From the NCBI GenBank assembly GCA_029851415.1, contig CM056743.1, positions 71,631,186-71,695,185 on the forward strand: a DNA stretch of 64,000 nucleotides, read 5' to 3'. Below, in pieces: positions 20,658-53,324 of this stretch; positions within the stretch are counted from its first letter, which is position 1, and each line of letters opens with the position of its first letter. The notes under the pieces were generated by a model that was not told the origin of the DNA, made no database searches, and saw nothing but the letters and a program-made list of their open reading frames with translations. A program made the position numbers and the translations under genes. Origin of the DNA: Eretmocerus hayati. Taxonomy: Eukaryota; Arthropoda; Insecta; Hymenoptera; Aphelinidae.

Positions 20658-21161
20658 TCACACTCTTCTCTTCGTCGTGGTGCGTCGTTTCTGTTTCTTC
20701 GTAACACCTGAGCTCGTGCGACGCTTGACACGTTTTTTGGTTGTCGATGCTTTCCTCCGACCGTGCGACGAGATACTAGAACCAGCATGGCCACGCTTGG
20801 ACTGTCGCTTCCTCCTCAGCGTGGCAGACTTATAACCGGAACCCCTCATCATCGTGCGTGCCTTATTGAATGCCTTCTTACCCAATTTCTTCGCAGGTTC
20901 ACGCGATTTGGCCTTCGAAGATTCCCTGATATTCATATCGTTCGCAGCCACGTCGTCAAACACGTTCAGCCCTGCACGTATTGCTTCCTTCCCAACAGCT
21001 TTAGCTCCACTCGTCAAGTAGGGCACCACGTTTCTGAAGAGAGATCCCAAGAAACTACCAACACCGGAGCCACGTTGATATGCCGAGCCAGCGAAAACAT
21101 TTCTCACACCTCTGTTACTGCCGCCCACCTGCTCACTGTAATAGTGAATGTAATGGCTCAT
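20658..21161 (-). CDS. Basic virion core-like protein (adenovirus pX/Mu-like)
   Basis: Intact 167-codon frame from the ATG at 21,159-21,161. The N-terminal half has the segment GSGVGSFLGSLFRNVVPYL followed by GAKAVGKEAIRAG, which recurs in Polinton and adintovirus core proteins and resembles adenovirus pX/pVI segments. The C-terminal half is an Arg/Lys/Ser tail with little else, suited to binding packaged DNA. It lies between the penton-like and major capsid-like genes. The role in packing DNA is inferred from composition and neighbours. Confidence 0.6.
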   Translation of the reverse strand: MSHYIHYYSEQVGGSNRGVRNVFAGSAYQRGSGVGSFLGSLFRNVVPYLTSGAKAVGKEAIRAGLNVFDDVAANDMNIRESSKAKSREPAKKLGKKAFNKARTMMRGSGYKSATLRRKRQSKRGHAGSSISSHGRRKASTTKKRVKRRTSSGVTKKQKRRTTTKRRV

Positions 21162-21179
21162 GATGGAAGCTCATGTCTC

Positions 21180-21977
21180 TCATCGTTCGTGGCGGAAGTG
21201 TAGCGTAACCGTCAGCGTTCCGTACTCGAATGGCACGCTCTGCCCGAGCTGATTCCTTATATCTATCACGATGCTCTGGAAGATGTGATGCATGAGCGGT
21301 ACATAATGTATGGGTGCGAACTGTCTGACCACGTTCGATCCAAACCTGTATCTTGAATTCTCTAGCGATACTATTCGTAATAGAGAAGCCTGTGTATCAC
21401 CGACTGTGTAAGGCTCGCATATGTCCGTGTAGACGTATAGCTGATCACACAAACAGCGAGAGATACATGCTAGTCTCTCGCCCACAATCTCTGTTCGCTT
21501 GGAGGTCATCTGCATCGCCTCTAAGCGTTCGTGGAAACCAAAGACTCGTCGCAACTTTTCACTCAAAATTAACTAATGACTATCCGCGCACACGCATACA
21601 CGTTTGATCATGTGAAAACCCTTTGGATTGACCGAGGGTTCTACACTGAGATGCCCGTTCAATTCGTGCGCGCTGTTGATTTCGCTAGCGAGTTGCTCAA
21701 TATTTTCATACACACCGTAGGGAATAGACAAGATTTGATCCTCGTGCTCATCGGTATCTACGGATGCGTTGAAATGAAAATCGGCTTCATCCTTTTGCAG
21801 GTGCGTCATGGTACATGGTATATGAATTTCAGCCAAACCGACCGACCAATTGCCATTCAATCGAATCACCCTATTCAGATGCGTCGTGGAACAGGTGGTG
21901 GTGTTCTCGGGGTAATACACCATGCTACTGTTGCTCGGCAAAACGAGGTAGACGTCATCCATCATAGCGTCGGACAT
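21180..21977 (-). pseudogene. Polinton penton/minor capsid-like protein, one in-frame TAG
   Basis: The frame from the ATG at 21,975-21,977 to 21,180 is continuous for 265 codons apart from a single TAG at 21,573-21,575; both halves look like the same protein and no frameshift is needed. The N-terminal part has VLPSNSSMVYYPENTTTCST and LNGNWSVGLAEIHIP, which I associate with the single jelly-roll protein of Polintons. The C-terminal part ends VPFEYGTLTVTLHFRHER, also typical. The assignment to penton/minor capsid is from family knowledge; the length is shorter than some relatives. As written it makes only a 134-residue product. Confidence 0.65.
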
Positions 21978-21991
21978 CCTCGCTGTTCAAT

Positions 21992-23188
21992 TTAAATCGA
22001 TTCCAATTCCGATGCTTTTATCCAGCTGTTGAATTTGTCGGGCCAACCAATCCACTTCACCAAAACTTGTCTATTGACACCATGACCTTTGCTACGTATA
22101 ATGCGCTCCACCCGGAATTCCTTGTCTGCTTCGAAGCGCTCTTTGGCAACTAAAGTCAATTCTTCGTTGTAGAAGAATTCGTCAATCAGCGCACCGTCCA
22201 AGTCGGTGATTTCGTAAGTGTAAAGACCTTGCCGGAACGACATGCGTGCAATTTTGAAGCACTCCTCCGAAAAATTCTTCATGTACCCTTTCTCGAAGGT
22301 TCCTTCGGAAAGACTGATACGCACCAAATCACCTACGTGATATTTAGGTACTACACATGTCTTCCTCTTGCTTTTCCAGAGTCGACCTTGGCGCGTGTTG
22401 AGGAGTGCTTGGCGCGCATTGAACAGGGTCACATCCACGGGTTTCATAGCGATCGTTGAGTGCCTAGTAAGATTGTACCCTTGAATGATTTTCTGTATGA
22501 CATCTATATATCTGTGGGTTTTGGCATGAGTGAAGTAGCGCCATACGCGTACCTTGATCGTTTTTTGCACGCTCTCTACTATACTACACTTCACATCCGG
22601 CAAGCGACTCGTTCTGAACCGTATAGAGTGTTCCTCGAGCAATCTTTGCATAGGACTACCTGTGAATTCTGTCCCTTCATCGGTCTGCAGCAGTATGAGC
22701 TTGCGCCCCCGAGCTCTCTCGAGGATCGACTCGAATGTTTTAGCAACGGTTCCGATCGATTCATCTTTGAGCACTTCAACCCGCACATATTTGCTCAGTA
22801 CATCGATGACGACCAGAAGATACGTGAAATCATCATTTTCACTCTTCAGAGAAGTCAATTGACTGAGGTGTGCCTCCCAGACATCATCTATATTTGTAAC
22901 GTTGTAATGAAGTCGAGAAAATCGGTGTCTAATCGGTCTGTGAAGAGTGTAAGCATCTTGATTGCTTAGCCATGAGTATATTCGGTCTTTCTCTCACGAT
23001 TTTTCCTTCACGGGCTTCCCTTGGGTATTGACACGTATGAGATTTCGAGCACCAGCGTAGCCGACCTCAAGATTTGGATCGTAGTACTGTGAACCGTAAT
23101 CGATACCTTTCTCGCGCCCTCTTGAACGCGTCATATTTAGATCTTGTAGTTTAGCCACCTCTTTTTCGTACCGTTCCTTGTCAATCAC
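21992..23188 (-). pseudogene. Polinton integrase with chromodomain, one in-frame TGA
   Basis: A single frame from about 23,188 to 21,992, about 398 codons, broken only by a TGA at 22,994-22,996. Visible features in order are WLSNQDAYTLHRPIR, VTNIDDVWEAHL, catalytic core motifs VVIDVLSK (first Asp), LLQTDEGTEF (second Asp) and SIVESVQKTIK (Glu), an SH3-like region, and a C-terminal chromodomain (RVERIIRSKGHGVNRQVLVKWIGWPDKFNSWI as a region, with the aromatic cage partly visible). Integrases of this type join the element into 6-bp-staggered target sites and chromodomains steer them to marked chromatin. The start is unclear: the open frame begins at GTG, with a (CTG)n tract just upstream at about 23,265. 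Confidence 0.8.
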
Positions 23189-23296
23189 TGACCAGGTGTG
23201 GATGACTGCACGTTTTCAACAAATCTGAATTTGGCACTGGGCTGGAAAGTCGGGCTAGTCCCGGGCTGCTGCTGCTGCTGATGTCACCCAATGTTT

Positions 23297-23718
23297 CATG
23301 GCTTTCTCATGGGTTCTGATAATCTTTTGGCCGTCTCCAATATGTCCAAGTTTCCGATGAGATTCACCGGTGTAGCAGACGTCCCGATGAATTCAGCAAA
23401 TTCTAACTATCCGACAGGTGGTTTGTATGTCCTTCCACTCTTTTTCACAACGTGTGCGAGCAATTCGAAGATATTAGACTGCGGGACAACCGTGCCATCA
23501 ATTATGGAGTTACCTTTGTCGTTCCATTCGAACCGATCCGGCTCGAAGCTCAGCCAGTGCCGAAGTAACGAGCGCGCATGCTCCGCGTGGGCTACAGGCA
23601 GATTTTCAATTATCCTATCTTCGGCCAATCTTGCTATCGCAGATGCATCGCTTTCGTCATCGCCATCGAGCCTCGACATAAATTCGCTGTGCCTTTCTTC
23701 GTCTTTGAAATATAGTTA
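23297..23718 (-). pseudogene. Conserved Polinton protein of unknown function, one in-frame TAG
   Basis: The frame is open from just after a TAA (about 23,719) to 23,297, with an ATG at 23,677-23,679 and one TAG at 23,407-23,409. The segment FEWNDKGNSIIDGTVVPQSN and the later region NLIGNLDILETAKRL resemble a small protein found in many insect Polintons. It is short (about 125-140 codons), partly acidic at the start, helical and of no assigned function. It sits upstream of the integrase on the same strand. Confidence 0.5.
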
Positions 23719-23780
23719 ACGTCGTAAAATCTGTAGATATTTTACGCACTTTTCTCGTTCATCTGTGATATCTTTCGAGT

Positions 23781-24059
23781 TCATGCGTCAGCCTCTGAAT
23801 CTTCGATGTCGTTTTCAGGTCTATCTTGTTGGTCGAAATCCCGTAGCTCGTCGTCCGGGAAAACCACATCGTTCTCGTCATCATCATGATCATCAAGGTA
23901 TTCACCGTGATTCTCGATACGATCCCGTCTTCGCTCGTCCTCTAGCTGGTTTGCCGGGGTATGATTTTCACCCTCGTCGTCGTCGGACGAGCTATTGGCT
24001 AAACCAACCTGTACCATCCACTCGTACATTTCTGTAGAGAATGATTTCGTATGAGTCAT
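23781..24059 (-). CDS. Small acidic protein, unrecognised
   Basis: A 92-codon frame from the ATG at 24,057-24,059. More than a third of residues are Asp or Glu, with a DDDEGE cluster and a second acidic block near DDHDDDEND. I recognise no family. Acidic low-complexity frames can be chance, but the position between two co-oriented element genes and the clean ATG make a real small gene plausible. Confidence 0.35.
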   Translation of the reverse strand: MTHTKSFSTEMYEWMVQVGLANSSSDDDEGENHTPANQLEDERRRDRIENHGEYLDDHDDDENDVVFPDDELRDFDQQDRPENDIEDSEADA

Positions 24060-24099
24060 CGTGAAGATGATAATGTGAGGATCATGATGTCCGTGTGAT

Positions 24100-24519
24100 T
24101 TACACGCACTGATCCATTATTATAAATTTGTTCAAACTGTATCCCTTCATTATAATTCTGATCGAATACATACCTATCACCTCGTCTCGCTGCTGCATTA
24201 GTGCTCTGAAACGAAAGAGCGACTGGGACCGATACCTCATGAGGTATTCCCCGGTGTGGTACATGGCTCTTTTACTTTTTATGAAAATACGGCTGTACAT
24301 CCTCTTGATCTGCTCGATGGTGGAATCAAACAGTATCCTGTTGAAGGATCGTACTATCAGACGATAACCGTTCGGTCTAGCTTCCAATCCCTCAAGGACT
24401 CTTTCACACCTCTGCCGAATTGCCCGTGACGTTCCAATCACACTAAAGTACCGCGCGCACTTCATGACGATGCGACGAAAAAGTCGGATGTTGGTGGTGG
24501 TTGGAACAGGAAGAACCAT
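24100..24519 (-). CDS. Basic Arg-rich protein of the Polinton, unrecognised
   Basis: A 139-codon frame from the ATG at 24,517-24,519, rich in Arg, Tyr and Met, with predicted helices and no clear motif (for example IKRMYSRIFIKSKRAMYH). It does not look like the packaging ATPase: no Walker A loop is present. It sits at the upstream end of the minus-strand gene block. Confidence 0.35.
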   Translation of the reverse strand: MVLPVPTTTNIRLFRRIVMKCARYFSVIGTSRAIRQRCERVLEGLEARPNGYRLIVRSFNRILFDSTIEQIKRMYSRIFIKSKRAMYHTGEYLMRYRSQSLFRFRALMQQRDEVIGMYSIRIIMKGYSLNKFIIMDQCV

Positions 24520-25296
24520 GGTGAGTTATTGTTAGCGGATAACAAAGAGAACACGAATCAGATTTCCCGAGATTTTGGGTGAAGCGAGTCGTACGGTTGT
24601 CTGAGGACAAAGTGAACGTGAGTCGAGCAAATTTAGCTCCTTATATCCAAGCAATGAGCTCTGAGGCAAACCCCAGAATTTCCCCTGGGTTTTGAATTGG
24701 TCGATCGAGTTTCCGTAGCGGGGGTGAATAAATTGAGCAGACCAAAGATAATTCATGCGAGTTCATTGGCACTTCCAGTGAGTCCTGGTTCTATGACGGG
24801 AGACTGGCCGGGTGTAGTCATGACCATGATGATGATGCTACAATATAATATACGTGTTACGTAGGCTGTTGGCCGGGACACAATACATTTCCTCTTTCTT
24901 ATACGATGATTTCCACACTATACTGCGAGAAATACCGTCGACGCGAATCACTAGTATCCCACGGGTGGGAATGAAGTCATTTAGCTTCCAATATCCCCTA
25001 TAGAGATGGCATTGGATCGTTATATCCTTGCTCGACAGGTATGGACAGGTTGTTTCGGATGAGCACTAGGTGCGACTATTATCGTTTTATTTGAGGAACG
25101 TGTGTATGGAGGAATCCTCCTACCTGACACGTGCACAAGCTATCAGATACTCTGTGACCATGACTCTCGCCAGCGAATCGCACATCCCCGGGTACCCTCT
25201 GCGACGGCCTCGTAGAACGCGTCGCTTCAGTTCGCCATCAGTCGTCGATCTGGAACATTGTGGCTCATATTTGGCTCTTTTCGATCAACACCCATA
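24520..25296. promoter_or_regulatory. Divergent intergenic region between minus- and plus-strand Polinton genes
   Basis: About 780 bp separate the minus-strand block (upstream gene start 24,519) from the plus-strand spliced gene (ATG at 25,297). Position suggests it holds both promoters. I see no clear TATA box close to either ATG and no conserved protein. Confidence 0.3.
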
Positions 25297-34545: not shown

Positions 34546-34550
34546 TCAGT

Positions 34551-36352
34551 ATATGATGAATTCCACGCCAAAGCGACCTACGAAAAGGGGTCATCTCTCA
34601 GATTCTTTTTTAACCTTTTTCATTCGATTCTATGGCCCAAAATAGGAATTTCGGACCACTTATGGGGCCCAAAAGAAATTTCTTCTCTCCATTGCACGCA
34701 CATCCGTCAACAGACCGAAAATTTATCGTGTGAAAATCGATGCTCTGTCATTCACGAAAATGGAAATATCTCGAGTTTTTGAATGGCTATCGATTTTCGG
34801 GTTGCGGCATCTGAAAGGATATCAAAAAACCTATCGAAAACGTTGTCGGAAATTCCTTCTCTGTGATTTGGGGGCCTCCTGGAGGCAAAAGAGTGTTTTT
34901 CACTAAAATGTTGATTTCCCAGAAAGCCATTTCTTTTATTTTTTCAAAATCATACATTTGACGTAAAATTCTGCGTTCTTTCGAAAAAAATGGGTTTCAG
35001 AGAAGTTTGGGGCGATCCAAGTGACTTATGAGCCATTTTTTGAAAATTCGATTTTTTCGGTTTCAGAAAAAGGCGATTTTCTGCGCATGCGCACGAACGT
35101 AGACTTTCGGCGCCACTCTCAATGGAAAGCTGACAAAATTTCCTATAAAATGACTACCCGCAAAGTTGGAATTCATGCACTGAAACGCGATCTGCAAGGA
35201 TTAATCATGTCGAATCAAAATCACATGAAAATTCAGCCCATTAATGCCTTCGTGGCACCTGCTGAGATGACACATTCACGAGATCTTCTCGGGACTCAAT
35301 TTTGAGTACGAAATTGACCTGAAAAAAATTCAAACCACATGGTTTCAACGTAAAATTGTATGAACTTTCAAAATATGCGATGAAAAACCCCGTTTGAGGC
35401 GAACCCGAGGTGCTACATTCAATTTCTTGCCAGAAAATACGATATTCCACATTCAAAATCGCGAAAAATTGATTGTAGCACCTCGGGTTCGCCTCAAACG
35501 GGGTTTTTTATCGCATATTTTGAAAGTTCATACAATTTTACGTTGAAACCATGTGGTTTAAATTTTTTTCAGGTCAATTTCGTACTCAAAATTGAGTCCC
35601 GAGAAGATCTCGTGAATGTGTCATCTCAGCAGGCGCCACGAAGGCATTAATGGGCTGAATTTCCATGTGATTTTGATTCGACATAATTAATCCTTGCAGA
35701 TCGCGTTTCAGTGCATGAATTCCAACTTTGCGGGTAGTCATTTCATAGGAAATTTTCTCGGCTTTCCATTGAGAGTAGCGCCGAAAGTCTACGTTTGTGC
35801 GCATGCGCAGAAAATTGCCTTTTTCTGAAACCGAAAAAATCGAATTTTCAAAAAATGGCTCATAAGTCACTTGGATCGCCACAAACTTCTCTGAAACCCA
35901 TTTTTTTCGAAAGAAGGCAAAATCTTACGTCAAATATATGATTTTGAAAAAACAAAAAAAATGGCTTTTTGAGAAATCAACATTTTAGTGAAAAACACTC
36001 TTTTGCCTCCAGGAGGCCCCCAAATCACAGAGAAGGAATTTCCGACAACGTTTTCGATAGGTTTTTTGATGCCCTTCCAGATGCCGCAACCCGCAATTCG
36101 ATAGCTATTCAAAAACTCGAAATATTCCCATTTCCGTGAATGAAAGAGCATCGATCTTTACACGATAAATTTTCGGCCTGTTGACGGATGTGCGTGCAAT
36201 GGGGAGGAGAAATTTTTTTTGGGCCCCATAGGTGGTCCGAAGTTCCTATTTTGGGCCATAGAATCGAATGAAAAAGGTTAAAAAAGAATCTGAGAGATGA
36301 CCCCTTTTCGTAGGTCGCTTTGGCGTGGAATTCATCATATATCATGGCTTGA
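34551..36352. mobile_element. 1.8-kb foldback element (large palindrome, ~880-bp arms)
   Basis: Arms 34,551-35,425 and 35,466-36,352 are near-identical inverted copies around a ~40-bp loop (coordinate sum about 70,903; the frame at 34,550-34,782 mirrors that at 36,109-36,363). It contains no transposase; the long frames read through the arms and are not genes. The outer ends are ATATGATGAATTCCACGCC. Sequence features such as GCGCATGCGCAG are shared with the second foldback element to the right. Confidence 0.85.
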
Positions 36353-42365: not shown

Positions 42366-42888
42366 ATTCAATTTCTCTCCCTCTCTCTCTTTTTTTTTTT
42401 CTTTTTTTTTTTCTTTTAAGGTGGCTGTAGGGTGAATACGCTGCGACGTACGAAGGAGAGGCCCCGGTCAGCCAAACACGGCTGGCCAGCACCTCCCCAA
42501 CAGTCCCGGGCTGGAATCCGCGTCGATACGGCCATCCGAACCGGGTAAACCCTCTCTTCCTTCTCCGTTGGCGCCGGCCATGGGACAAGGGAGAGATCCA
42601 CCAACTTACCAATCCGGCCCCGGCACCGCGTGAGCATTACTTCAGGGCCGGCGGCGTCTCGCGCTCAGGATCGAGCGTCTCTCTTCTCACGACTCGCAGG
42701 TGTTGTTTCCCTTCCTTCGATCTTCTTCCATCTCTTCATTCTTCATTCTTCTTTCTTCTTTCTTCGATCTTCTCTCTTCTTCCTTCCCTCTTCAGTCCAT
42801 CATGTTCCTCCTGGAACCAGTTGGACCTCTTCTGTTTGAATCGGCAGGTTTACTGTAATTCACCGGCATCGAGGCGCCTCACCTCCCT
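42366..42888 (-). mobile_element. 3' part of an R1-like LINE, split off by the palindromic element
   Basis: On the minus strand this continues the LINE at 53,319-55,290: the open frame runs 11 codons past the insertion to a TAA at 42,850-42,852, followed by a ~430-bp 3' UTR (42,420-42,849) and an A-rich tail (T-rich on the plus strand, 42,388-42,418) next to a (CT)n tract. The frame at 42,416-42,637 lies in the UTR. The left copy of the target duplication (CTCCCT) is at 42,883-42,888. I include it as part of the LINE because the join is exact. Confidence 0.8.
42883..42888. repeat. Left target-site duplication CTCCCT
   Basis: Six bases immediately left of the palindromic element, identical in direct orientation to those at 53,319-53,324. 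Confidence 0.85.
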
Positions 42889-43049
42889 AGTAGTGGAGCT
42901 ATGCCGTTCCTGGCGCATGCCGGTCCTGGCGCAACGGTTCTAGCGCAATGGGAAATAGCATGTGTGCCAGTTCTGGCGCACGTCGGTAAGGTAGGTCACC
43001 ACCTTAACCACTGTGGGCGAGTATCGATCCAAACCGGTATAGTAGGAAT

Positions 43050-43410
43050 CTGGTAGATTTTACAACCCATACTCGTGTAGATTTTCATAACCCATATCTG
43101 TGATGAAATTCCTCAACGCATATCCGGATGGACTACCACATAACCCGTGTCCTAGGCCGTTCCTGGCCCATGTTTGTGTAGATTTTATAACCCATAACCC
43201 ATATTTATGTATATTTTACAACCCATAACCCATATTTGTATATATTTTACAACCCGTAACCCATATTTGTGGAGATTTTCATAACCCATATCTGTGATAA
43301 AATTCCCCAACCCATCTTTGTGAAGTTTCTCATAACCCATATCTGTGATGGAATTTTCCTAACCCATATCCGAATGGACTACCACATAACCCATGTCGGT
43401 AAGGCAGGTT
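43050..43410. repeat. ATAACCCATAT block (outer, left)
   Basis: About 350 bp with roughly fifteen copies of the motif (ATAACCCATAT with variants such as ACAACCCATAACCCATATTTG), spaced irregularly at 15-50 bp. Mirrored at about 52,797-53,157. It lies just inside the element end. Confidence 0.7.
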
Positions 43411-43573
43411 GCCACCTTGCCTACTGTAGGTAAGGGGTACACTTGAGCCGATAAGGTAGTGATCTGCATTACCATCAGATGGTAACCGATCACAACATGT
43501 GCAGGACAAACAGCCTGTACGTCAAATGTTTTTTGATGGCCCTGAAAAGGGCCGATTGTACTCCCCGCTCCGC

Positions 43574-43786
43574 CTAGCAATCTGGAACATCATTCCTCCT
43601 TGCAGGCCTTGATGTTGGCACCGGCTCAGGCCTAGTCGGGATCCTAAACCATGGTTCTCGAGGAGGTGGTGGTGGAGGTGACTGGAACAACCTGACCTCG
43701 ATGACCACCACCGGTTCCCGACGTCTCGGTTCTATGTCGATGATAGGCATCGATGGCAACTCTGTGCGGAGCTCTTGTTGATCCAT
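43574..43786 (-). CDS. Small proline-rich protein (gene C, left copy)
   Basis: 70-codon frame, the mirror of 52,421-52,633. The start is the ATG at 43,784-43,786; an upstream frame extends to 43,924 but crosses the TATA box at 43,831-43,837. The sequence contains a PPPPPPREPW stretch and basic RPARR near the end; no known domain. See the right copy for the promoter. Confidence 0.5.
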   Translation of the reverse strand: MDQQELRTELPSMPIIDIEPRRREPVVVIEVRLFQSPPPPPPREPWFRIPTRPEPVPTSRPARRNDVPDC

Positions 43787-43904
43787 TGTGAGCAAGCGAT
43801 TGAATGACACCCTGACGCTCGGTAGCCTTGCTTTATAGTCGAGCCCCCTCCATCGAGCCACCGCAACGCATGCGCACTTTCTTTTGGGGCCCAGGGCCGC
43901 CTGT

Positions 43905-44393
43905 TCACTGGGTTGTCCAGTCATCCGAAAAGGAAATCCAGCAATCTAATTCCACGATTTCGATACCTAGCTCCCCCATCCGTGCATGATCATCTTTACC
44001 TATTCCGCACTCTTTCATCTTATCTACGCAGTCTTTCAACTTGCGTAAGAACGGTGTCTCCCATCGAACTAATCTCTGCATGTACAGATTGACATCTGTG
44101 ATGATGATCTCTGCATCTCTCTTGTAGTAGTACCCGGTGTCGAAATTATAGAAGAAATGATCATCAATCCATAAATTGCCATCCACTGTGTTGAACTCGA
44201 GTTTCGCCGATTCTACACATCTCTCGCACGACTCCTCTTCATCGAAGAAATTAACGCTGACTGCTACCTCACCAGGCAAGAGCCTCCAATCTTCGGATAC
44301 TGGATACCCTTTGCAGGACTGCAAGGTCTCCTTTCTTTCTGTACACCCATCTTCACCCAGAAAATGGATGCAGATATTGAACGAGAAGCCCAT
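43905..44393 (-). CDS. Gene B, unrecognised protein, left copy
   Basis: Identical to 51,814-52,302. It is a paralogue of gene A with about 40% visible identity in corresponding segments. The start ATG at 44,391-44,393 lies 42 bp downstream of TATAAAG, as in gene A, while an upstream in-frame ATG precedes the promoter. See the right copy for details. Confidence 0.6.
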   Translation of the reverse strand: MGFSFNICIHFLGEDGCTERKETLQSCKGYPVSEDWRLLPGEVAVSVNFFDEEESCERCVESAKLEFNTVDGNLWIDDHFFYNFDTGYYYKRDAEIIITDVNLYMQRLVRWETPFLRKLKDCVDKMKECGIGKDDHARMGELGIEIVELDCWISFSDDWTTQ

Positions 44394-44527
44394 GACGACA
44401 GAATGATCCGTCTGCGTGTCCGACCGAGCTTTATATGACAATCGCCCCCACCACAAGTCGAGCCGCCGACGCCGCACGCATGCGCATATCTTAATTACTT
44501 TAGCTCTGAGTGATTACTCATTCCTCT

Positions 44528-45016
44528 TCAATGGAATACTTTCGAGTAATCCGTGAACGAGATCCAGTCTTCCTTCACAACTTCGATGCCTAGCACTTTC
44601 ATGCATGAATGATCATCCTTCCCTATTCCATACTCTCTAATCTTCTCCACACAATCTCTCAACCTGCGCAAAAATGGTGTTTCATATCGATCTACTTTCT
44701 TGAAGTATAGATCAACATCTGGGATAATGAGTTTTGAATGTTCTTTGTAGTAGTAGCCTGTGTCGAAATTATAGAAGAATTGAGTTTCAACCCATAAATT
44801 GCCATCTTTTGTACTGAACACAAATGTAGGTGATTCAATGCATTTCTCGCAATACCGCCCCTCATAGAAGAAGTGAACGCTGACTGTCGCTTCACCCGGT
44901 AAGATCTTCCAATCTTGAGATTCGAGACGCCCTTTGTAAGAGTACATGGTATCTTTCCTCATTGTGCGCCCATCTCGATCCAGAAAGTGAACGCAGATGT
45001 AGTATGAGCAACCCAT
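44528..45016 (-). CDS. Gene A, unrecognised protein, left copy
   Basis: Identical to 51,191-51,679. The start ATG is at 45,014-45,016; the in-frame ATG 18 bp earlier lies only ~24 bp from the TATA box and would be upstream of the transcript start. See the right copy for details. Confidence 0.6.
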   Translation of the reverse strand: MGCSYYICVHFLDRDGRTMRKDTMYSYKGRLESQDWKILPGEATVSVHFFYEGRYCEKCIESPTFVFSTKDGNLWVETQFFYNFDTGYYYKEHSKLIIPDVDLYFKKVDRYETPFLRRLRDCVEKIREYGIGKDDHSCMKVLGIEVVKEDWISFTDYSKVFH

Positions 45017-45154
45017 GATGTCGGATTGATCCATTTGTTTATTCAACCGGGCTTTATATGCCAGTCGCCCCCCCACCACAAGTCGAGCCGCCGACGCCGC
45101 ACGCATGCGCATATCTCGAATTCTTGAGTGTGTGCTAGTGTAAGCCAGAATGGC

Positions 45155-45560
45155 TCAATGTCTGTGATCCATAACCCATATTTCAAGGTCTTTTGGCCGT
45201 ATCTCAGCGGATAATGCCCAGAGAGGCTCCGCGATGAGTGCATTGAAACCCTCGTAGACCCCCTTCAATTTTCCATACTGTGCTCCATAACCCATATTCC
45301 AAGGTCTTCTGGCTGTATCTTGGTAGACAATACTCAGAGAGGCCCCGCGACAAGTGCATATAACCCATATTTCAAAGTCTATAGGCCATATGCTGAGAGA
45401 GGCCCCCCCGGGATGAGCGCATTGTGTTCCTCGTGAACCCCGCTTACAATTTTTCATGCTGTGCTCCATAACCCAACTCTCTCCATAACTCATAAACCTC
45501 CGAAAGAAGGGTTGCTCCATAACCCATGTGTCTTCAAAAGAATGTTTTACTCCATAACCC
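45155..45560. repeat. ATAACCCATAT block (inner, left)
   Basis: Motifs TCCATAACCCATAT and CTCCATAACCCAAC occur about every 30-60 bp between gene A and the 31-bp array. Mirrored at 50,647-51,052, where the plus strand reads GGGTTATGGAGC. The 135-codon frames here follow the repeat and are not genes. Confidence 0.65.
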
Positions 45561-45933
45561 AACTTGCTCTATAACCCACGTGTCTCCAAAAATGCAGGTT
45601 TTCCGGTAATGCAGGTTTCCTCCCTACCAACAGTCGGCAAAGTAGAGTCTCTTCCTCATCATCAAGAGTTGAGCGGAGGTGATGCAGGTATCATGACAAC
45701 TACTCTCCCCAGGCCCCGATCTGCGGGACTCAAGGTCCGTAACTCAACGAATAAAACTAACTCACACGATTGAGCGTCAGCTATCGAATTCACGTCTAGT
45801 AGGCAGCCGTCCAGCGGCCAGATGCCAGCAGCCAGCAGCCAGGTGCAGGTGTCAAGTGGGGCAACTCATCCCGGTGCTCGCATCCTGATGCATGCGCTCC
45901 CCTCTAGCGGCCTGTTCTGATCATTCCCACGAC

Positions 45934-46445
45934 GTGCCGGTACTCAGCTATACCGCACGGTATTCGACCGGTATTCGGCTATACCGCGCGGTATTCCGTC
46001 GGTATTTGGCTATACCGCGCGCTATTTGATCGGTATTCGGCTATACCGCGCAGTATTCCGTCGGTTTTGGCTATACCGTGCGGTATTCGATCGGTATTCG
46101 GCTATACCGCGCGGTATTCCGTCGGTATTCGGCTATACCGCGCGGTATTCGATCGGTATTCGGCTATACCGCGCGTTATTCGATCGGTATTCGGCTATAC
46201 CGCGCGGTATTCCGTCGGTATTCGGCTATACCGCGCGGTATTCGATCGGTATTCGGCTATACCGCGCGTTATTCGATCGGTATTCGGCTATACCGCGCGG
46301 TATTCCGTCGGTATTCGGCTATACCGTGCGGTATTTGATCGGTATTCGGCTATACCGCGCGGTATTCCGTCGGTATTCGGCTATACCGCTCGGTATTCGA
46401 TCGGCATCCGGCTATACCGCGCGGTATTCGATTAGTACTCGATCG
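45934..46445. repeat. 31-bp tandem array, left (about 16 units)
   Basis: Unit of 31 bp with the core CTATACCGCGCGGTATTC and an alternating linker (GATCGG or CGTCGG), so consecutive palindromes CCGCGCGG lie 31 bp apart. Because 31 is not a multiple of three, all three forward frames are open and share one translated pattern every 31 residues; none of those frames is a gene. The right arm has 13 corresponding units. Confidence 0.85.
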
Positions 46446-46486
46446 GTATCCTGGTTTGAGTCATCACGAATGGTCAGGAACTCTGA

Positions 46487-46493
46487 TATAAAA
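46487..46493 (+). promoter_or_regulatory. TATA box of the DUF8207-like gene (left)
   Basis: TATAAAA at 46,487-46,493 lies 61 bp upstream of the ATG at 46,548. The FLYWCH gene has the same arrangement (60 bp). Confidence 0.6.
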
Positions 46494-46547
46494 GGGATGA
46501 TTCCTAGGGAGGTACTCCAGTCAATCAGAGCACGTCAAACCGCGGAC

Positions 46548-47417
46548 ATGGAGGACTATATCAATCAAAGAGATGAACTCGTCAAGCTCATGAAAGCCAA
46601 ACGAGCTCTCAAACGAAAATATGTGGCGATGCAGCGCCAACAAGCTGAGTTTGAGAAAAACATGAGTGATACATTCAAGCCCATTACTGATCCACTCGAA
46701 AAAATCATAGCCCATCAAGAAAACCACCGGGATCTCCAGAAAGAATTCGGACAACTGGACGATTCGGTCAAGGCCTCGTATATAGGCGACGAGACTTTAA
46801 TGAATCGGAGCGTTCCAGAGGATATCGAGAGTCAAAATTCTTCGGTTGCTTCATTCGAGACGGCTGATGATGAACTTAGCGAGCCCGAATACTACTTATC
46901 TACCCTGCGTAGGGATGATCGTAATCTTGATAGGATATATGGAGTCAGACGGAATGGGAATTCCTTGGGAATCGGTAAATCTCGAGTACAGCTAACCAAT
47001 GACTATATCACAGTAGATAACCACCGGTTCCCAACCACAACTGGTTTGCTTGAATTGATCTTCAAAAGATCCCCAGATCAAAATGTGATATCTGAGGAAG
47101 ATATGAGAAACTATCGCAAAATCTTGGATGTCTCGCATGTTCACCGTAAAAGATTCGTGCACGATGGAGAACTGCGCAAGAGCAAGAGCCGAAAATTCCA
47201 GAACATAATCGCGCCACTATTTGACGTGGATAAACGAGGCGGATCACTGGCGAGTGGGTTGATCACTATATATTGGGATGATCCGAATAAGATAGTCGAC
47301 AGACTTCGGGGTCTAATTGATGAAAAGTCAGCTGGTAATCGAAATAACGATGATGAGATAAGAGCTATCTTAGAATCTTTGTATCTGGCGGGCTACATAA
47401 GTACAACTTACTCTTGA
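46548..47417 (+). CDS. DUF8207-like protein with N-terminal coiled coil
   Basis: 289 codons from the ATG at 46,548. I chose this start because the TATA box lies 61 bp upstream; the open frame continues upstream only through the 31-bp array. The N-terminal 70 residues look like a coiled coil (LVKLMKAKRALKRKYVAMQR). Residues ~128-235 match the pattern I know as DUF8207: DRIYGVRRNG, GIGKSRVQLTNDYITVDN, TTTGLLELIFKRSPD and EDMRNYRKILD. The pattern recurs in Polinton-type and related elements of Hymenoptera; the function is unknown. The ORF ends normally after the arm boundary (47,318), so the last 33 codons are single-copy. Identification is from memory of the pattern and needs a profile search. 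Confidence 0.6.
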   Translation: MEDYINQRDELVKLMKAKRALKRKYVAMQRQQAEFEKNMSDTFKPITDPLEKIIAHQENHRDLQKEFGQLDDSVKASYIGDETLMNRSVPEDIESQNSSVASFETADDELSEPEYYLSTLRRDDRNLDRIYGVRRNGNSLGIGKSRVQLTNDYITVDNHRFPTTTGLLELIFKRSPDQNVISEEDMRNYRKILDVSHVHRKRFVHDGELRKSKSRKFQNIIAPLFDVDKRGGSLASGLITIYWDDPNKIVDRLRGLIDEKSAGNRNNDDEIRAILESLYLAGYISTTYS

Positions 47418-47442
47418 ATTAGTATTCTTGAGCAAGATTTAG

Positions 47443-47449
47443 TATAAAT
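47443..47449 (+). promoter_or_regulatory. TATA box of the FLYWCH gene
   Basis: TATAAAT, 60 bp upstream of the ATG at 47,503. It is downstream of the DUF8207 stop (47,417), so the two genes are tandem but have separate promoters. Confidence 0.6.
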
Positions 47450-47502
47450 ACAGATAAGAATGACCAGAGGAACATTACTCATTGAGCAGTTAAGCTGACG
47501 AC

Positions 47503-48684
47503 ATGGGTGAGAACTTCGAGGAAGCTCTCGAGAGAGCTGCTATGGCGGTGAAGAAGAAACTGCAGCTTCTACGCGAGGAGCCCTCATATCGAGGGGACTT
47601 GAGCAAATCGAATCAGGTCCGAGTACCGGGTGGAAATGAGGAGCCTCCACAGGCAGAAGAGATCGATGAATCGATGAAATTCATCAAGAATCGTCTTGGC
47701 AAGGATCAACTTGTAGTGAATGGGAGTCATTTTAACCGAGAGAAAGTCCATCGAGACGGTACAGTTCGATGGAAATGCCATGCATACTATAAGACCAAAT
47801 GTCGAAGTACAGCAGTGACTCGGGGAACGAATCTGGTCAGCGTTGGCGATCACAACCATGCCGGGGAGTTCATTTTACGAACACAACCGTCTACGTATGA
47901 GAATGCAGAGAATAGTGGAGCTCTTGGCAATGTTGCGCCTCCAGAGAGTCGTGATCAGAACCAGTCGGTAATCGTTGAGAATTCCAAGAGTTCCGTGGAA
48001 TCGTCTCCTCACGAGTCATCGAATAGAGAGGGAGCTGTCGACAGTGTTACTCCTAAGGAGGGTCGCAATGAGAGTCATTCAATGTTCGATAGAAGTTCTG
48101 ACAATCCGGGTCTCACCAGTTCACAGGGTAATGCGGAATCATACCCTAGCTTTGATATTTCGGACCCTAGCAGTATGCACGAAGACCTAGAGAGTATATC
48201 ATGTTCACAGAATGATTCCGGAAGTACCCGAGTATCCTACCCTTTCAGTTCGAGGGACGATTCACAGTCTGACTCAGATAATCCATGCATTGATAACTGG
48301 GAGTCCAAACAAAATGAGTCCAGTGAGCAATGGCTAACTCGCGATCATTGGCAACCCCATTGTTACTCCAGAGGGTCTGCGACAGGTGACGCCACAGACG
48401 AAATATACGATAGGGGAACTTCTCCATACATGGATTTCCGAGCCCCAAAGGCCGGAGCGTGGGTCCCTTGCCTAGTCAAAGGTTATTCGGGAAAGAGTCA
48501 GCAAACTTCGAGGTCCAGGAACAGAGATTTATTGCTCACATTCGCACGTCAATCATTCAGACGATTAGGACTTCCGTCATACGAGACTCTCCCACGGACC
48601 ATACAATATGTGCAGGGTATCAGGAGGCGTCATTATAATGGGAGATACTACTGGTCCAAACTGGAGCCAGAAATAGGGAGCTGA
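47503..48684 (+). CDS. FLYWCH zinc-finger protein
   Basis: 393 intact codons from the ATG at 47,503. Residues ~60-121 form a FLYWCH-type finger: F60, then G-K-D-x-L-V-V-N-G, F77, W90, C92, C100 and H117-x-H119 (VRWKCHAYYKTKC, VGDHNH). The spacing C-x7-C and H-x-H suits zinc binding, as in the FLYWCH/Mod(mdg4)/MULE-associated family. The rest is a Ser/Glu/Asn-rich low-complexity tail, with a basic C-terminus (QTSRSRNRDLLLTFARQSFRR). FLYWCH fingers bind DNA and occur in insect chromatin proteins and in MULE transposons. Here it is the only gene of the single-copy centre, so it might bind the arms, for example the arrays. That role is inference. Confidence 0.75.
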   Translation: MGENFEEALERAAMAVKKKLQLLREEPSYRGDLSKSNQVRVPGGNEEPPQAEEIDESMKFIKNRLGKDQLVVNGSHFNREKVHRDGTVRWKCHAYYKTKCRSTAVTRGTNLVSVGDHNHAGEFILRTQPSTYENAENSGALGNVAPPESRDQNQSVIVENSKSSVESSPHESSNREGAVDSVTPKEGRNESHSMFDRSSDNPGLTSSQGNAESYPSFDISDPSSMHEDLESISCSQNDSGSTRVSYPFSSRDDSQSDSDNPCIDNWESKQNESSEQWLTRDHWQPHCYSRGSATGDATDEIYDRGTSPYMDFRAPKAGAWVPCLVKGYSGKSQQTSRSRNRDLLLTFARQSFRRLGLPSYETLPRTIQYVQGIRRRHYNGRYYWSKLEPEIGS

Positions 48685-49752
48685 GCGACTCATGTTTACA
48701 TGAACCCTTAGACAAGCGTCTCTCGGTTGATGAGGTAAACTTAGTCCAAGGACTCTAACTCTCGACCCGAGTTGCGGGATGATTTGAGGGAGAGAATAGC
48801 GATAGAGTACCGCGCGGTATAGCCGAATACCGATCGAATACCGCGCGGTATAGCCGAATACCGACGGAATACCGCGCGGTATAGCCGAATACCGATCGAA
48901 TACCGCGCGGTATAGCCGAATACCGATCGAATACCGCGCGGTATAGCCGAATACCGACGGAATACCGCGCGGTATAGCCGAAATTAGACCCCGAAGTCTG
49001 TCGACTATCTTATTCGGATCATCCCAATATATAGTGATCAACCCACTCGCCAGTGATCCGCCTCGTTTATCCACGTCAAATAGTGGCGCGATTATGTTCT
49101 GGAATTTTCGGCTCTTGCTCTTGCGCAGTTCTCCATCGTGCACGAATCTTTTACGGTGAACATGCGAGACATCCAAGATTTTGCGATAGTTTCTCATATC
49201 TTCCTCAGATATCACATTTTGATCTGGGGATCTTTTGAAGATCAATTCAAGCAAACCAGTTGTGGTTGGGAACCGGTGGTTATCTACTGTGATATAGTCA
49301 TTGGTTAGCTGTACTCGAGATTTACCGATTCCCAAGGAATTCCCATTCCGTCTGACTCCATATATCCTATCAAGATTACGATCATCCCTACGCAGGGTAG
49401 ATAAGTAGTATTCGGGCTCGCTAAGTTCATCATCAGCCGTCTCGAATGAAGCAACCGAAGAATTTTGACTCTCGATATCCTCTGGAACGCTCCGATTCAT
49501 TAAAGTCTCGTCGCCTATATACGAGGCCTTGACCGAATCGTCCAGTTGTCCGAATTCTTTCTGGAGATCCCGGTGGTTTTCTTGATGGGCTATGATTTTT
49601 TCGAGTGGATCAGTAATGGGCTTGAATGTATCACTCATGTTTTTCTCAAACTCAGCTTGTTGGCGCTGCATCGCCACATATTTTCGTTTGAGAGCTCGTT
49701 TGGCTTTCATGAGCTTGACGAGTTCATCTCTTTGATTGATATAGTCCTCCAT
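48577..49752 (-). pseudogene. DUF8207-like gene, right copy, 3' end replaced by repeats
   Basis: Mirror of 46,548-47,417 for 49,752-48,982. At 48,982 the gene runs into a block of 31-bp units (48,806-48,981) and then into antisense of the FLYWCH gene, so the last 33 native codons are absent. The resulting chimeric frame is open to 48,577 with no stop, but the added part is repeat translation. The native TATA box is retained at the mirror position (49,807-49,813). It is probably non-functional or altered. Confidence 0.7.
48806..48981. repeat. Extra block of 31-bp units at the inner end of the right arm
   Basis: Between five and six units with the same CCGCGCGG core in the reverse orientation. 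They adjoin the right arm at 48,982 without equivalents at the left inner end. They may mark the recombination point that made the palindrome. Confidence 0.8.
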
Positions 49753-49864
49753 GTCCGCGGTTTGACGTGCTCTGATTGACTGGAGTACCTCCCTAGGAAT
49801 CATCCCTTTTATATCAGAGTTCCTGACCATTCGTGATGACTCAAACCAGGATACCGATCGAGTA

Positions 49865-50270
49865 CTAATCGAATACCGCGCGGTATAGCCGGATGCCGAT
49901 CGAATACCGAGCGGTATAGCCGAATACCGACGGAATACCGCGCGGTATAGCCGAATACCGATCAAATACCGCACGGTATAGCCGAATACCGACGGAATAC
50001 CGCGCGGTATAGCCGAATACCGATCGAATAACGCGCGGTATAGCCGAATACCGATCGAATACCGCGCGGTATAGCCGAATACCGACGGAATACCGCGCGG
50101 TATAGCCGAATACCGATCGAATACCGCACGGTATAGCCAAAACCGACGGAATACTGCGCGGTATAGCCGAATACCGATCAAATAGCGCGCGGTATAGCCA
50201 AATACCGACGGAATACCGCGCGGTATAGCCGAATACCGGTCGAATACCGTACGGTATAGCTGAGTACCGG
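49865..50270. repeat. 31-bp tandem array, right (about 13 units)
   Basis: Mirror of 45,934-46,445 with three units fewer. The same CCGCGCGG core is spaced at 31 bp. Confidence 0.85.
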
Positions 50271-51095
50271 CACGTCGTGGGAATGATCAGAACAGGCCGC
50301 TAGAGGGGAGCGCATGCATCAGGATGCGAGCACCGGGATGAGTTGCCCCACTTGACACCTGCACCTGGCTGCTGGCTGCTGGCATCTGGCCGCTGGACGG
50401 CTGCCTACTAGACGTGAATTCGATAGCTGACGCTCAATCGTGTGAGTTAGTTTTATTCGTTGAGTTACGGACCTTGAGTCCCGCAGATCGGGGCCTGGGG
50501 AGAGTAGTTGTCATGATACCTGCATCACCTCCGCTCAACTCTTGATGATGAGGAAGAGACTCTACTTTGCCGACTGTTGGTAGGGAGGAAACCTGCATTA
50601 CCGGAAAACCTGCATTTTTGGAGACACGTGGGTTATAGAGCAAGTTGGGTTATGGAGTAAAACATTCTTTTGAAGACACATGGGTTATGGAGCAACCCTT
50701 CTTTCGGAGGTTTATGAGTTATGGAGAGAGTTGGGTTATGGAGCACAGCATGAAAAATTGTAAGCGGGGTTCACGAGGAACACAATGCGCTCATCCCGGG
50801 GGGGCCTCTCTCAGCATATGGCCTATAGACTTTGAAATATGGGTTATATGCACTTGTCGCGGGGCCTCTCTGAGTATTGTCTACCAAGATACAGCCAGAA
50901 GACCTTGGAATATGGGTTATGGAGCACAGTATGGAAAATTGAAGGGGGTCTACGAGGGTTTCAATGCACTCATCGCGGAGCCTCTCTGGGCATTATCCGC
51001 TGAGATACGGCCAAAAGACCTTGAAATATGGGTTATGGATCACAGACATTGAGCCATTCTGGCTTACACTAGCACACACTCAAGAATTCGAGATA

Positions 51096-51155
51096 TGCGC
51101 ATGCGTGCGGCGTCGGCGGCTCGACTTGTGGTGGGGGGGCGACTGGCATATAAAG
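51096..51155 (+). promoter_or_regulatory. Gene A promoter: TGCGCATGCG motif plus TATA box
   Basis: TGCGCATGCG at 51,096-51,105 is followed by GTGCGGCGTCGGCGGCTCGACTTGTGG-type sequence shared with gene B, then TATAAAG at 51,149-51,155. The ATG at 51,191 is 42 bp downstream of the TATA start. The TGCGCATGCG half is close to the NRF-1 (insect Ewg) palindromic site. Confidence 0.7.
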
Positions 51156-51190
51156 CCCGGTTGAATAAACAAATGGATCAATCCGACATC

Positions 51191-51679
51191 ATGGGTTGCT
51201 CATACTACATCTGCGTTCACTTTCTGGATCGAGATGGGCGCACAATGAGGAAAGATACCATGTACTCTTACAAAGGGCGTCTCGAATCTCAAGATTGGAA
51301 GATCTTACCGGGTGAAGCGACAGTCAGCGTTCACTTCTTCTATGAGGGGCGGTATTGCGAGAAATGCATTGAATCACCTACATTTGTGTTCAGTACAAAA
51401 GATGGCAATTTATGGGTTGAAACTCAATTCTTCTATAATTTCGACACAGGCTACTACTACAAAGAACATTCAAAACTCATTATCCCAGATGTTGATCTAT
51501 ACTTCAAGAAAGTAGATCGATATGAAACACCATTTTTGCGCAGGTTGAGAGATTGTGTGGAGAAGATTAGAGAGTATGGAATAGGGAAGGATGATCATTC
51601 ATGCATGAAAGTGCTAGGCATCGAAGTTGTGAAGGAAGACTGGATCTCGTTCACGGATTACTCGAAAGTATTCCATTGA
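51191..51679 (+). CDS. Gene A: unrecognised ~162-aa protein (right copy)
   Basis: 162 codons from the ATG at 51,191 to the stop at 51,679; an identical copy lies in the left arm. I chose this ATG because it is conserved in gene B (M-G-[CF]-S), and the one 18 bp earlier (51,173) lies too close to the TATA box to be in the mRNA. Common features with gene B: ICVHFLDRDG near the start, C-x2-C (EKCIES region), DGNLWVETQFFYNFDTGYYYK, and a C-terminal DCVEKIREYGIGKDDH with D-W-I-S-F near the end. It resembles no family known to me. Two related genes in every arm point to an element-specific function. Confidence 0.6.
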   Translation: MGCSYYICVHFLDRDGRTMRKDTMYSYKGRLESQDWKILPGEATVSVHFFYEGRYCEKCIESPTFVFSTKDGNLWVETQFFYNFDTGYYYKEHSKLIIPDVDLYFKKVDRYETPFLRRLRDCVEKIREYGIGKDDHSCMKVLGIEVVKEDWISFTDYSKVFH

Positions 51680-51720
51680 AGAGGAATGAGTAATCACTCA
51701 GAGCTAAAGTAATTAAGATA

Positions 51721-51778
51721 TGCGCATGCGTGCGGCGTCGGCGGCTCGACTTGTGGTGGGGGCGATTGTCATATAAAG
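51721..51778 (+). promoter_or_regulatory. Gene B promoter: TGCGCATGCG motif plus TATA box
   Basis: TGCGCATGCG at 51,721-51,730, then a block nearly identical to that of gene A, and TATAAAG at 51,772-51,778. The ATG is 42 bp downstream, exactly as for gene A. Confidence 0.7.
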
Positions 51779-51813
51779 CTCGGTCGGACACGCAGACGGA
51801 TCATTCTGTCGTC

Positions 51814-52302
51814 ATGGGCTTCTCGTTCAATATCTGCATCCATTTTCTGGGTGAAGATGGGTGTACAGAAAGAAAGGAGACCTTGCAGTCCTGCAAAGGG
51901 TATCCAGTATCCGAAGATTGGAGGCTCTTGCCTGGTGAGGTAGCAGTCAGCGTTAATTTCTTCGATGAAGAGGAGTCGTGCGAGAGATGTGTAGAATCGG
52001 CGAAACTCGAGTTCAACACAGTGGATGGCAATTTATGGATTGATGATCATTTCTTCTATAATTTCGACACCGGGTACTACTACAAGAGAGATGCAGAGAT
52101 CATCATCACAGATGTCAATCTGTACATGCAGAGATTAGTTCGATGGGAGACACCGTTCTTACGCAAGTTGAAAGACTGCGTAGATAAGATGAAAGAGTGC
52201 GGAATAGGTAAAGATGATCATGCACGGATGGGGGAGCTAGGTATCGAAATCGTGGAATTAGATTGCTGGATTTCCTTTTCGGATGACTGGACAACCCAGT
52301 GA
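51814..52302 (+). CDS. Gene B: paralogue of gene A (right copy)
   Basis: 162 codons from the ATG at 51,814; the residue equivalent to the earlier ATG of gene A is an ACG, which supports the chosen start. It shares the layout with gene A: ICIHFLGEDG, C-x2-C (CERCVES), DGNLWIDDHFFYNFDTGYYYK and KMKECGIGKDDH. I recognise no domain. Divergence from gene A shows an old duplication maintained in the element. An identical left copy lies at 43,905-44,393. Confidence 0.6.
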   Translation: MGFSFNICIHFLGEDGCTERKETLQSCKGYPVSEDWRLLPGEVAVSVNFFDEEESCERCVESAKLEFNTVDGNLWIDDHFFYNFDTGYYYKRDAEIIITDVNLYMQRLVRWETPFLRKLKDCVDKMKECGIGKDDHARMGELGIEIVELDCWISFSDDWTTQ

Positions 52303-52330
52303 ACAGGCGGCCCTGGGCCCCAAAAGAAAG

Positions 52331-52376
52331 TGCGCATGCGTTGCGGTGGCTCGATGGAGGGGGCTCGACTATAAAG
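52331..52376 (+). promoter_or_regulatory. Gene C promoter: TGCGCATGCG motif plus TATA box
   Basis: TGCGCATGCG at 52,331-52,340 and TATAAAG at 52,370-52,376; the ATG at 52,421 is 51 bp downstream. The connecting sequence is shorter than in genes A and B, so the promoter is related but not identical. Confidence 0.6.
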
Positions 52377-52420
52377 CAAGGCTACCGAGCGTCAGGGTGT
52401 CATTCAATCGCTTGCTCACA

Positions 52421-52633
52421 ATGGATCAACAAGAGCTCCGCACAGAGTTGCCATCGATGCCTATCATCGACATAGAACCGAGACGTCGGGAACCGGTGGT
52501 GGTCATCGAGGTCAGGTTGTTCCAGTCACCTCCACCACCACCTCCTCGAGAACCATGGTTTAGGATCCCGACTAGGCCTGAGCCGGTGCCAACATCAAGG
52601 CCTGCAAGGAGGAATGATGTTCCAGATTGCTAG
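52421..52633 (+). CDS. Gene C: small proline-rich protein (right copy)
   Basis: 70 codons from the ATG at 52,421, 51 bp after the TATA box. It contains acidic/basic segments around IEPRRREPVVVIEVRLF, a run of six prolines followed by REPWFRIPTRPEPVP, and ends RNDVPDC. It is low in complexity, perhaps an SH3/WW-type interaction peptide; no family is recognised. The identical left copy and conserved promoter are the main support. Confidence 0.5.
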   Translation: MDQQELRTELPSMPIIDIEPRRREPVVVIEVRLFQSPPPPPPREPWFRIPTRPEPVPTSRPARRNDVPDC

Positions 52634-52796
52634 GCGGAGCGGGGAGTACAATCGGCCCTTTTCAGGGCCATCAAAAAACATTTGACGTACAGGCTGTTTG
52701 TCCTGCACATGTTGTGATCGGTTACCATCTGATGGTAATGCAGATCACTACCTTATCGGCTCAAGTGTACCCCTTACCTACAGTAGGCAAGGTGGC

Positions 52797-53157
52797 AACC
52801 TGCCTTACCGACATGGGTTATGTGGTAGTCCATTCGGATATGGGTTAGGAAAATTCCATCACAGATATGGGTTATGAGAAACTTCACAAAGATGGGTTGG
52901 GGAATTTTATCACAGATATGGGTTATGAAAATCTCCACAAATATGGGTTACGGGTTGTAAAATATATACAAATATGGGTTATGGGTTGTAAAATATACAT
53001 AAATATGGGTTATGGGTTATAAAATCTACACAAACATGGGCCAGGAACGGCCTAGGACACGGGTTATGTGGTAGTCCATCCGGATATGGGTTGAGGAATT
53101 TCATCACAGATATGGGTTATGAAAATCTACACGAGTATGGGTTGTAAAATCTACCAG
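52797..53157. repeat. ATAACCCATAT block (outer, right)
   Basis: Mirror of 43,050-43,410; on the plus strand it reads ATATGGGTTATG and ATGGGTTGTAAAAT. Confidence 0.7.
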
Positions 53158-53318
53158 ATTCCTACTATACCGGTTTGGATCGATACTCGCCCACAGTGGT
53201 TAAGGTGGTGACCTACCTTACCGACGTGCGCCAGAACTGGCACACATGCTATTTCCCATTGCGCTAGAACCGTTGCGCCAGGACCGGCATGCGCCAGGAA
53301 CGGCATAGCTCCACTACT

Positions 53319-53324
53319 CTCCCT
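53319..53324. repeat. Right target-site duplication CTCCCT
   Basis: Identical to 42,883-42,888 and immediately outside the right arm. A 6-bp direct repeat is the Polinton-type signature. Confidence 0.85.

Follow-up and report, generated by a model that had tools for sequence, protein, structure and literature searches.

A palindromic element with Maverick-type ends in the wasp Eretmocerus hayati, probably a satellite of larger Mavericks

A 64,000-nucleotide stretch of the genome of the aphelinid wasp Eretmocerus hayati (contig CM056743.1, positions 71,631,186 to 71,695,185; the whole stretch is called the window below) holds a 10,430-bp palindromic element at 42889-53318 that combines the ends of a Maverick (Polinton) with a set of genes among which no replication or capsid gene of these transposons was found. 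How does such an element move, and where do its ends and its genes come from? An earlier note, made from the letters of this DNA, had proposed a non-autonomous or satellite relative of Polintons, and this proposal is supported by other copies in the genome, by a host reading frame that is continuous across the insertion site, and by full-type Mavericks with the same terminal bases. The element is real, repeatedly inserted mobile DNA. It was apparently active recently, has interchangeable palindromic arms, and probably lives as a parasite of larger Mavericks in the same genome; we put the probability that it belongs to a lineage of non-autonomous Maverick satellites, which borrow the ends and enzymes of a helper, at about 0.8.

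Ends, insertion site and genes of the element

The terminal bases at 42889 and 53318 are AGTAGTGGAGCT and AGCTCCACTACT respectively, an end pair of the (AGT)2...(ACT)2 type (left motif at 42889-42894, plus strand), and a perfect 6-bp duplication, CTCCCT, abuts the element on each side (42883-42888 and 53319-53324). The left palindrome arm measures 4430 bp (42889-47318, plus strand) and the right one 4337 bp (48982-53318, minus strand); the 93 bp between them amount to three 31-bp units, and a single mismatch, at 43118, separates the arms outside the 31-bp array. Sequence and arm comparison thus bear out the end points, the flanking CTCCCT and the 4.4-kb arms claimed before. The palindrome is interrupted where the tandem array shifts the register between the arms (45938-46432 with 16 units on the left, 49868-50269 with 13 units on the right, both given on the plus strand), and again where the right gene B, lacking its last 32 codons, enters a further array of six units (48794-48982, plus strand). 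Non-coding repeats rich in AACCCATA fill 45113-45900 (plus strand), and AACCCATAT, on the plus strand of the window, is confined to the left arm, where it occurs 10 times.

The element lies in an open reading frame (ORF) for a reverse transcriptase of the non-long terminal repeat (non-LTR) type (RVT_1, E=3.4e-18), which runs from 54863 to 53325 on the minus strand. When the element and one CTCCCT are omitted, this ORF continues uninterrupted through the joined flanks to a stop in the left flank, which marks a clean insertion into a non-LTR retrotransposon and supplies the view of the site without the element for which the earlier note had asked. An (AGT)2...(ACT)2 pair with a perfect 6-bp duplication arose somewhere in 64 kb in 11 of 200 mononucleotide shuffles; against chance, the end motifs here match the palindrome ends base for base, and the same ends recur in nine further satellites.

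Each arm carries the genes C (70 amino acids, proline-rich), A1 (162), A2 (168) and B (289), and a gene for a FLYWCH protein of 393 amino acids is central (47503-48684, plus strand). C, A1 and A2 are directed outwards (on the left at 43574-43786, 43905-44393 and 44528-45034, minus strand; on the right at 52421-52633, 51814-52302 and 51173-51679, plus strand) and are followed inwards by the 31-bp array, B and FLYWCH. The complete B lies at 46548-47417 (plus strand), its start being the ATG after the TATA box, and the truncated right B at 48983-49752 (minus strand). Eight gene copies around a FLYWCH gene is therefore a correct count for this copy, the others mostly having a single B, and the TATA boxes ascribed to these genes can be seen by eye ahead of C, A1, A2, B and FLYWCH. 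The stretches ahead of C, A1 and A2 have GCGCATGCG and a TATA box in common, and B and FLYWCH have separate TATA boxes. A2 is 59% identical to A1, with a ratio of non-synonymous to synonymous substitution rates (dN/dS) of about 0.26.

The FLYWCH protein matches PF04500 (E=2.2e-12, 47.4 bits against a cut-off of 23.6). Its only two database relatives are fragments from Eretmocerus hayati, and a predicted protein from this species matches it at 99% identity over 141 residues. In two public E. hayati models (P0063 and P0064) the match to the satellite protein stops at residue 326, after which the models diverge, P0064 continuing into a trypsin-like domain; the shared break is probably a mispredicted splice site. 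For B, the Pfam profile scan gave no DUF8207 match, nor did it for any of the 48 members of the B alignment; the family assignment, in line with the DUF8207-like gene of the earlier note, comes from PF26634, which all 62 B homologues carry. Among viral proteins, a fold search with B gave a single significant match, to a DUF8207 protein of Cotesia sesamiae Mombasa bracovirus (E=2e-14). DNA polymerase B, integrase, ATPase, protease and jelly-roll capsid were all without a Pfam match among the five genes and nine further ORFs scanned in the unique half of the element (from a list of 36 stop-to-stop ORFs of at least 60 amino acids), and here too the absence of replication and capsid genes noted earlier holds.

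Satellites and full-type Mavericks in the same genome

The terminal 72 bp found 33 matches in the genome. By position and orientation, 22 of them form 11 pairs 10-55 kb apart; of the remainder, seven are solitary, two delimit a mini element and a further two lie within copy 6. Among the 11 paired elements the 6-bp duplication is perfect in 10 and agrees at 5/6 bases in one, and all have AGTAGT...ACTACT ends, except for an AGAAGT start in copy 11. Seven pairs are satellites with palindromic arms around B-FLYWCH, namely copies 1 (this one), 2, 3, 4, 5, 8 and 9, with sizes of 10,430 (this copy), 12,653, 12,648, 14,002, 13,427, 10,199 and 10,346 bp. Gene B is single and central in five of the six others; in copy 4 the B-FLYWCH module occurs two times, and C and A1 are missing from the right arm. 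Across the other satellites found by their ends, gene C is 98.6-99.5% identical; A2 is not recognisable in copies 3 and 5. Together with the loci reached through the core (below), 11 satellite loci were inspected and both ends were seen in 10, every one of which has palindromic arms as well as the (AGT)2/(ACT)2 ends and perfect 6-bp duplication that the earlier note had required of further copies. Arm lengths across the inspected copies range from 3.2 to 5.2 kb. The mini element (C2:36204323-36204728, 406 bp) has AGTAGT...ACTACT ends and resembles a miniature inverted-repeat transposable element (MITE); its flanks, CTTCGA/TCCGAA, are not a clean 6-bp duplication.

The remaining pairs, copies 6, 7, 10 and 11, are full-type Mavericks of 18,104, 18,539, 20,730 and 54,775 bp with terminal repeats of ~0.16 to 1.5 kb; their duplication is perfect in three and agrees at 5/6 bases in the fourth. 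Copy 7 encodes a double jelly-roll (DJR) capsid (E=2.3e-115), a Pox_A32 ATPase (1.2e-6) and DNA_pol_B_2 (7.2e-12), and copy 6 an integrase core (2.6e-15) and a DJR capsid (3.2e-107). Pfam over copies 6, 7 and 10 together gives DJR capsid, Pox_A32 ATPase, integrase core, DNA_pol_B_2 and a PLA2/Adeno_PX ORF (L019:6254-7159; phospholipase A2-like at 3.9e-11, with a weak match to adenovirus core-protein X at 0.0018); no protease was identified by Pfam in the full-type copies scanned. DUF8207 matches occur in all four, partial or in pieces in copies 10 and 11; these two were compared through their fetched outer pieces, exclusive of the middles, and copy 11 was classed as full-type from its DUF8207 piece and ORFs rather than from a Pfam scan. 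The largest of the four (C4:39983743-40038517), whose Maverick-type ends lie 54.8 kb apart with a perfect duplication, probably contains nested DNA, and large ORFs at L027:4237-8994 suggest later insertions inside it.

The genes C, A1 and A2 also sit at the end of full-type Mavericks, where C is 93-99% identical and in some copies broken. Compared from the end through A1, a span of ~1.5 kb, copy 7 shows 13/1504, 8/1545 and 14/1545 differences from satellites 1, 2 and 4 respectively. Full Mavericks with the same terminal bases, sought by the earlier note, are present as copies 6, 7, 10 and 11, of which copy 7, at 8-14 differences per ~1,500, is nearly the same sequence. Comparison by blastn showed this C-A1-A2 end to be the only part of the element shared with full-type Mavericks; the comparison gave no match to FLYWCH, to B, to the 31-bp array or to the inner repeats in the fetched pieces, and the core motif of the array is absent from all eight of them. 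Of the cargo once regarded as the element's own, C, A1 and A2 thus lose that standing. In the tree, B joins the DUF8207 genes of copies 6 and 7 (support 95/95; about 43-45% identity), on a long branch whose placement the tree program itself flagged as unsure.

The core leads to more copies than the ends do. The FLYWCH gene has at least 28 gene-length matches (91-100%) in at least 27 loci of the genome, a lower bound from 40 scored candidates out of 78; there are 27 further, shorter matches at 71-80%, besides one short stretch at 100%. Of the 27 loci, seven were already known as end pairs, and for an eighth, C4:69.25 Mb, a partial match to the end lies ~11 kb away. Surroundings were inspected for four of the other 20, which places 16 of the 27 outside the inspected set, among them C4:69.25 Mb, whose fetched piece does not include its FLYWCH gene. 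The core (31-bp array, B, FLYWCH, array) is present in 11/11 inspected loci, and B is 98.5-100% identical and open in all of them; in copy 5 it was read in two parts, both matching the window copy at 100%.

Around this core the arms vary. Two loci, C3:150.58 Mb and C1:11.01 Mb, have the same core (B at 99.8%), (AGT)2/(ACT)2 ends and perfect duplications (AATTTG and TCACAC respectively), with palindromic arms that show one mismatch in 2,766 positions and three mismatches plus 19 gap bases in 2,803; blastn of their arm, which holds a 365-amino-acid ORF, against the arm of our element found nothing beyond an inner repeat of ~100 bp. C3:18.95 Mb, which is flanked by CCAAAC duplications, has 433 terminal bases in common with these two loci, followed by a different arm with a 264-amino-acid ORF; over 3,869 bp its arms are 99.7% identical. 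The ORF of this third arm type is 41-43% identical to window ORFs at 16,615-17,414, which lie beside a degraded Polinton relic (window 15000-25000, minus strand) with an integrase core (E=1.1e-9) and chromodomain at 21995-22993; its capsid-like and protease-like ORFs were recognised by eye only and have no Pfam match. At a fourth locus, C4:102854831, sequence resembling C and A1 was seen, and the palindromic arms extend past the fetched pieces; this locus stands outside the end counts. Near-identical cores therefore sit between unrelated palindromic arms. A decayed, divergent relative at C1:52660848-52669430 (L037:8848 to L033:7431) has weakly A-like sequence, short terminal repeats, a duplication agreeing at 5/6 bases (GGTTCA/GGGTCA), a B-like gene at 58-68% amino acid identity and a FLYWCH-like gene that matches PF04500 at E=1.2e-10; it suggests that the core predates the present palindromes.

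Arm exchange, proposed helpers and rival explanations

In all six satellites compared (copy 4, with its incomplete right arm, was left out), only 0-2 bases separate the left from the right arm over their outer 1.45-1.55 kb. The left arms of the seven satellites fall into the groups {1,2,4}, {3,5} and {8,9}, with 0-10 differences within and 31-68 between groups. For four of the six, the nearest arm is clearly the element's own second arm, and copy 3 ties with copy 5; copy 9 has the same A2 frameshift in both arms. Copies 1, 2, 4 and 8 share one and the same B sequence, yet 64/1,417 positions distinguish the arms of copies 1 and 8, which shows that core and arms have separate histories. The arm of copies 3 and 5 consists of the Maverick A-gene end followed by an inverted piece that takes in the integrase end with the sequence around it and matches copy 7 at 99% identity; this end fragment is the only integrase sequence in the two copies, and the structure is what template switching on a helper would leave. 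In copy 9, 8/13 differences in B are synonymous (p=0.002), so that B appears to be kept for function. Elsewhere in the window, an 881-bp inverted repeat, 95% complementary with a 30-bp spacer, occupies 34550-36341.

These data fit a scheme in which the protein-primed polymerase of helper Mavericks would copy the element from its (AGT)2 ends and their integrase would insert it, acting in trans. Linear strand-displacement copies with complementary ends could fold into a panhandle and so keep the arms identical; alternatively, fold-back copying could remake one arm from the other. Template switches, aided by the shared repeats and arrays, would let a core swap ends and follow different helpers. 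B probably competes with, or stands in for, the DUF8207 protein of the helper, and FLYWCH probably binds element DNA, with the 31-bp arrays as the obvious candidate site. A bolder and unproven case, to which we give somewhat less than even odds, is that of a long-lived lineage whose fixed core (array, decoy DUF8207 gene, FLYWCH gene, array) takes the terminal arm of an active Maverick, palindromises it and so hijacks successive helpers, perhaps restraining them as a virophage would.

Several observations weigh against a satellite lineage with actively matched arms and functional genes. The left arm of copy 5 is closer to that of copy 3 (0/1526) than to its own right arm (2/1516), and recent insertion alone could in part explain near-identical arms. 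No A2 was found in copies 3 and 5, and that of copy 9 is broken. FLYWCH of copy 9 has 6 synonymous and 13 non-synonymous differences, a pattern not distinguishable from neutral, and in copy 3 a 22-base deletion disrupts the FLYWCH frame. As for the putative helper, the polymerase match of copy 7 is scattered over three ORFs, and copies 6, 10 and 11 differ from our element by 7-12% at the end; the match of arms to full-type Mavericks was shown for the C-A1-A2 subfamily. The satellite is known from sequence alone, no mobilisation, replication intermediate or particle having been observed.

Each copy might instead be an independent, defective-interfering-like rearrangement of a Maverick, a dead-end fold-back product that founds no lineage. 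Adenovirus defective genomes are known to have inverted terminal duplications, the arms of this subfamily are a full-type Maverick end, and copies 3 and 5 join distant Maverick parts in inverted orientation. What makes this account improbable is the core: not found in the fetched full-type Mavericks, it recurs, with FLYWCH at no fewer than 27 loci and an open, near-identical B in the 11 inspected satellites, and its common descent in loci with several arm types argues strongly against separate origins, while the decayed relative with its B-like and FLYWCH-like genes points to an older lineage. A full Maverick that lost its core genes by internal deletion after insertion would account for satellites of 10-14 kb beside full-type elements of 18-21 kb; we consider it most unlikely, as the centre is no deletion scar: it is made up of two genes and the arrays that belong to them, and it recurs almost unchanged at many sites.

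Only a little more credit is due to an independent small virus-like element with an undetected replication system of its own and ends that converged on those of Mavericks. It would suit the two same-species fragments that are the only relatives of FLYWCH, and the lack of database relatives for A1 (in a search that covered A1, not A2 or C). Convergence is hard to reconcile with 99.1% identity to copy 7 over the terminal 1.5 kb, with C, A1 and A2 genes common to full-type Mavericks and a DUF8207 gene that groups with theirs, and no core-gene domain appeared among the ORFs scanned. Perfect palindromes are also a known class of assembly artefact, arising from inverted read duplication; with flanks that differ on the two sides, a 6-bp duplication, a host ORF continuous at the joined flanks, arms of unequal length and the same layout elsewhere with other duplications, we regard such an origin here as practically negligible. 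With the satellite lineage retained, near-identical arms and cores in many copies suggest that Maverick-type replication and integration machinery recently worked in this wasp lineage. For a parasitic element, swapping whole arms about a single core would be an unusual route to a new helper, and for every arm type a Maverick with matching ends is predicted.

Comparison with known systems

Non-autonomous DNA transposons, such as MITEs and internal-deletion derivatives, have ends in common with a fuller relative and no transposase of their own. The satellites resemble them in both respects and differ in having their own genes, a palindrome, and ends that vary around the same core. Virophages and other satellites of large DNA viruses depend on the replication machinery of a helper. 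The proposed helper dependence, and genes that may interfere with the helper, recall this system; in contrast to it, no capsid gene was seen in the satellite, the supposed helper is itself a Maverick, and our element is known as DNA sequence only.

The closest likeness is to Mavericks themselves. In vertebrates, according to PMC8097293, (AGT)2//(ACT)2 ends with 6-bp duplications are their signature, the terminal inverted repeats ending in (AGT)2//(ACT)2 or (AG)3//(CT)3, and such repeated end motifs permit jumping-back during protein-primed replication; whether animal Mavericks are working viruses is open, their particles not having been observed (PMC8097293). The satellites have these ends and duplications, the C-A1-A2 end and a gene of the DUF8207 family, and differ in that polymerase, integrase, ATPase, protease and capsid genes were not detected. 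Their arms of 3.2-5.2 kb also exceed the repeats of vertebrate Mavericks (46-1,447 bp, mean 402; PMC8097293), which upholds the earlier view of them as unusually long; as a fixed property of the element that view fails, the same core occurring between unrelated arms.

A last comparison concerns the Maverick remnants in braconid bracovirus loci. There, unlike in the satellite, the Maverick has PolB, ATPase and integrase genes, and no palindrome or FLYWCH core is described for it in the passages of PMC3573978 and PMC2646287 considered. The likeness to the satellite is the bracovirus DUF8207 protein that matches B in fold. In the wasp Cotesia sesamiae, bracovirus-like sequence lies within a Maverick (PMC3573978), and the stretch encoding the bracovirus DUF8207 protein is probably this bracovirus-like sequence inside the Maverick of that wasp.

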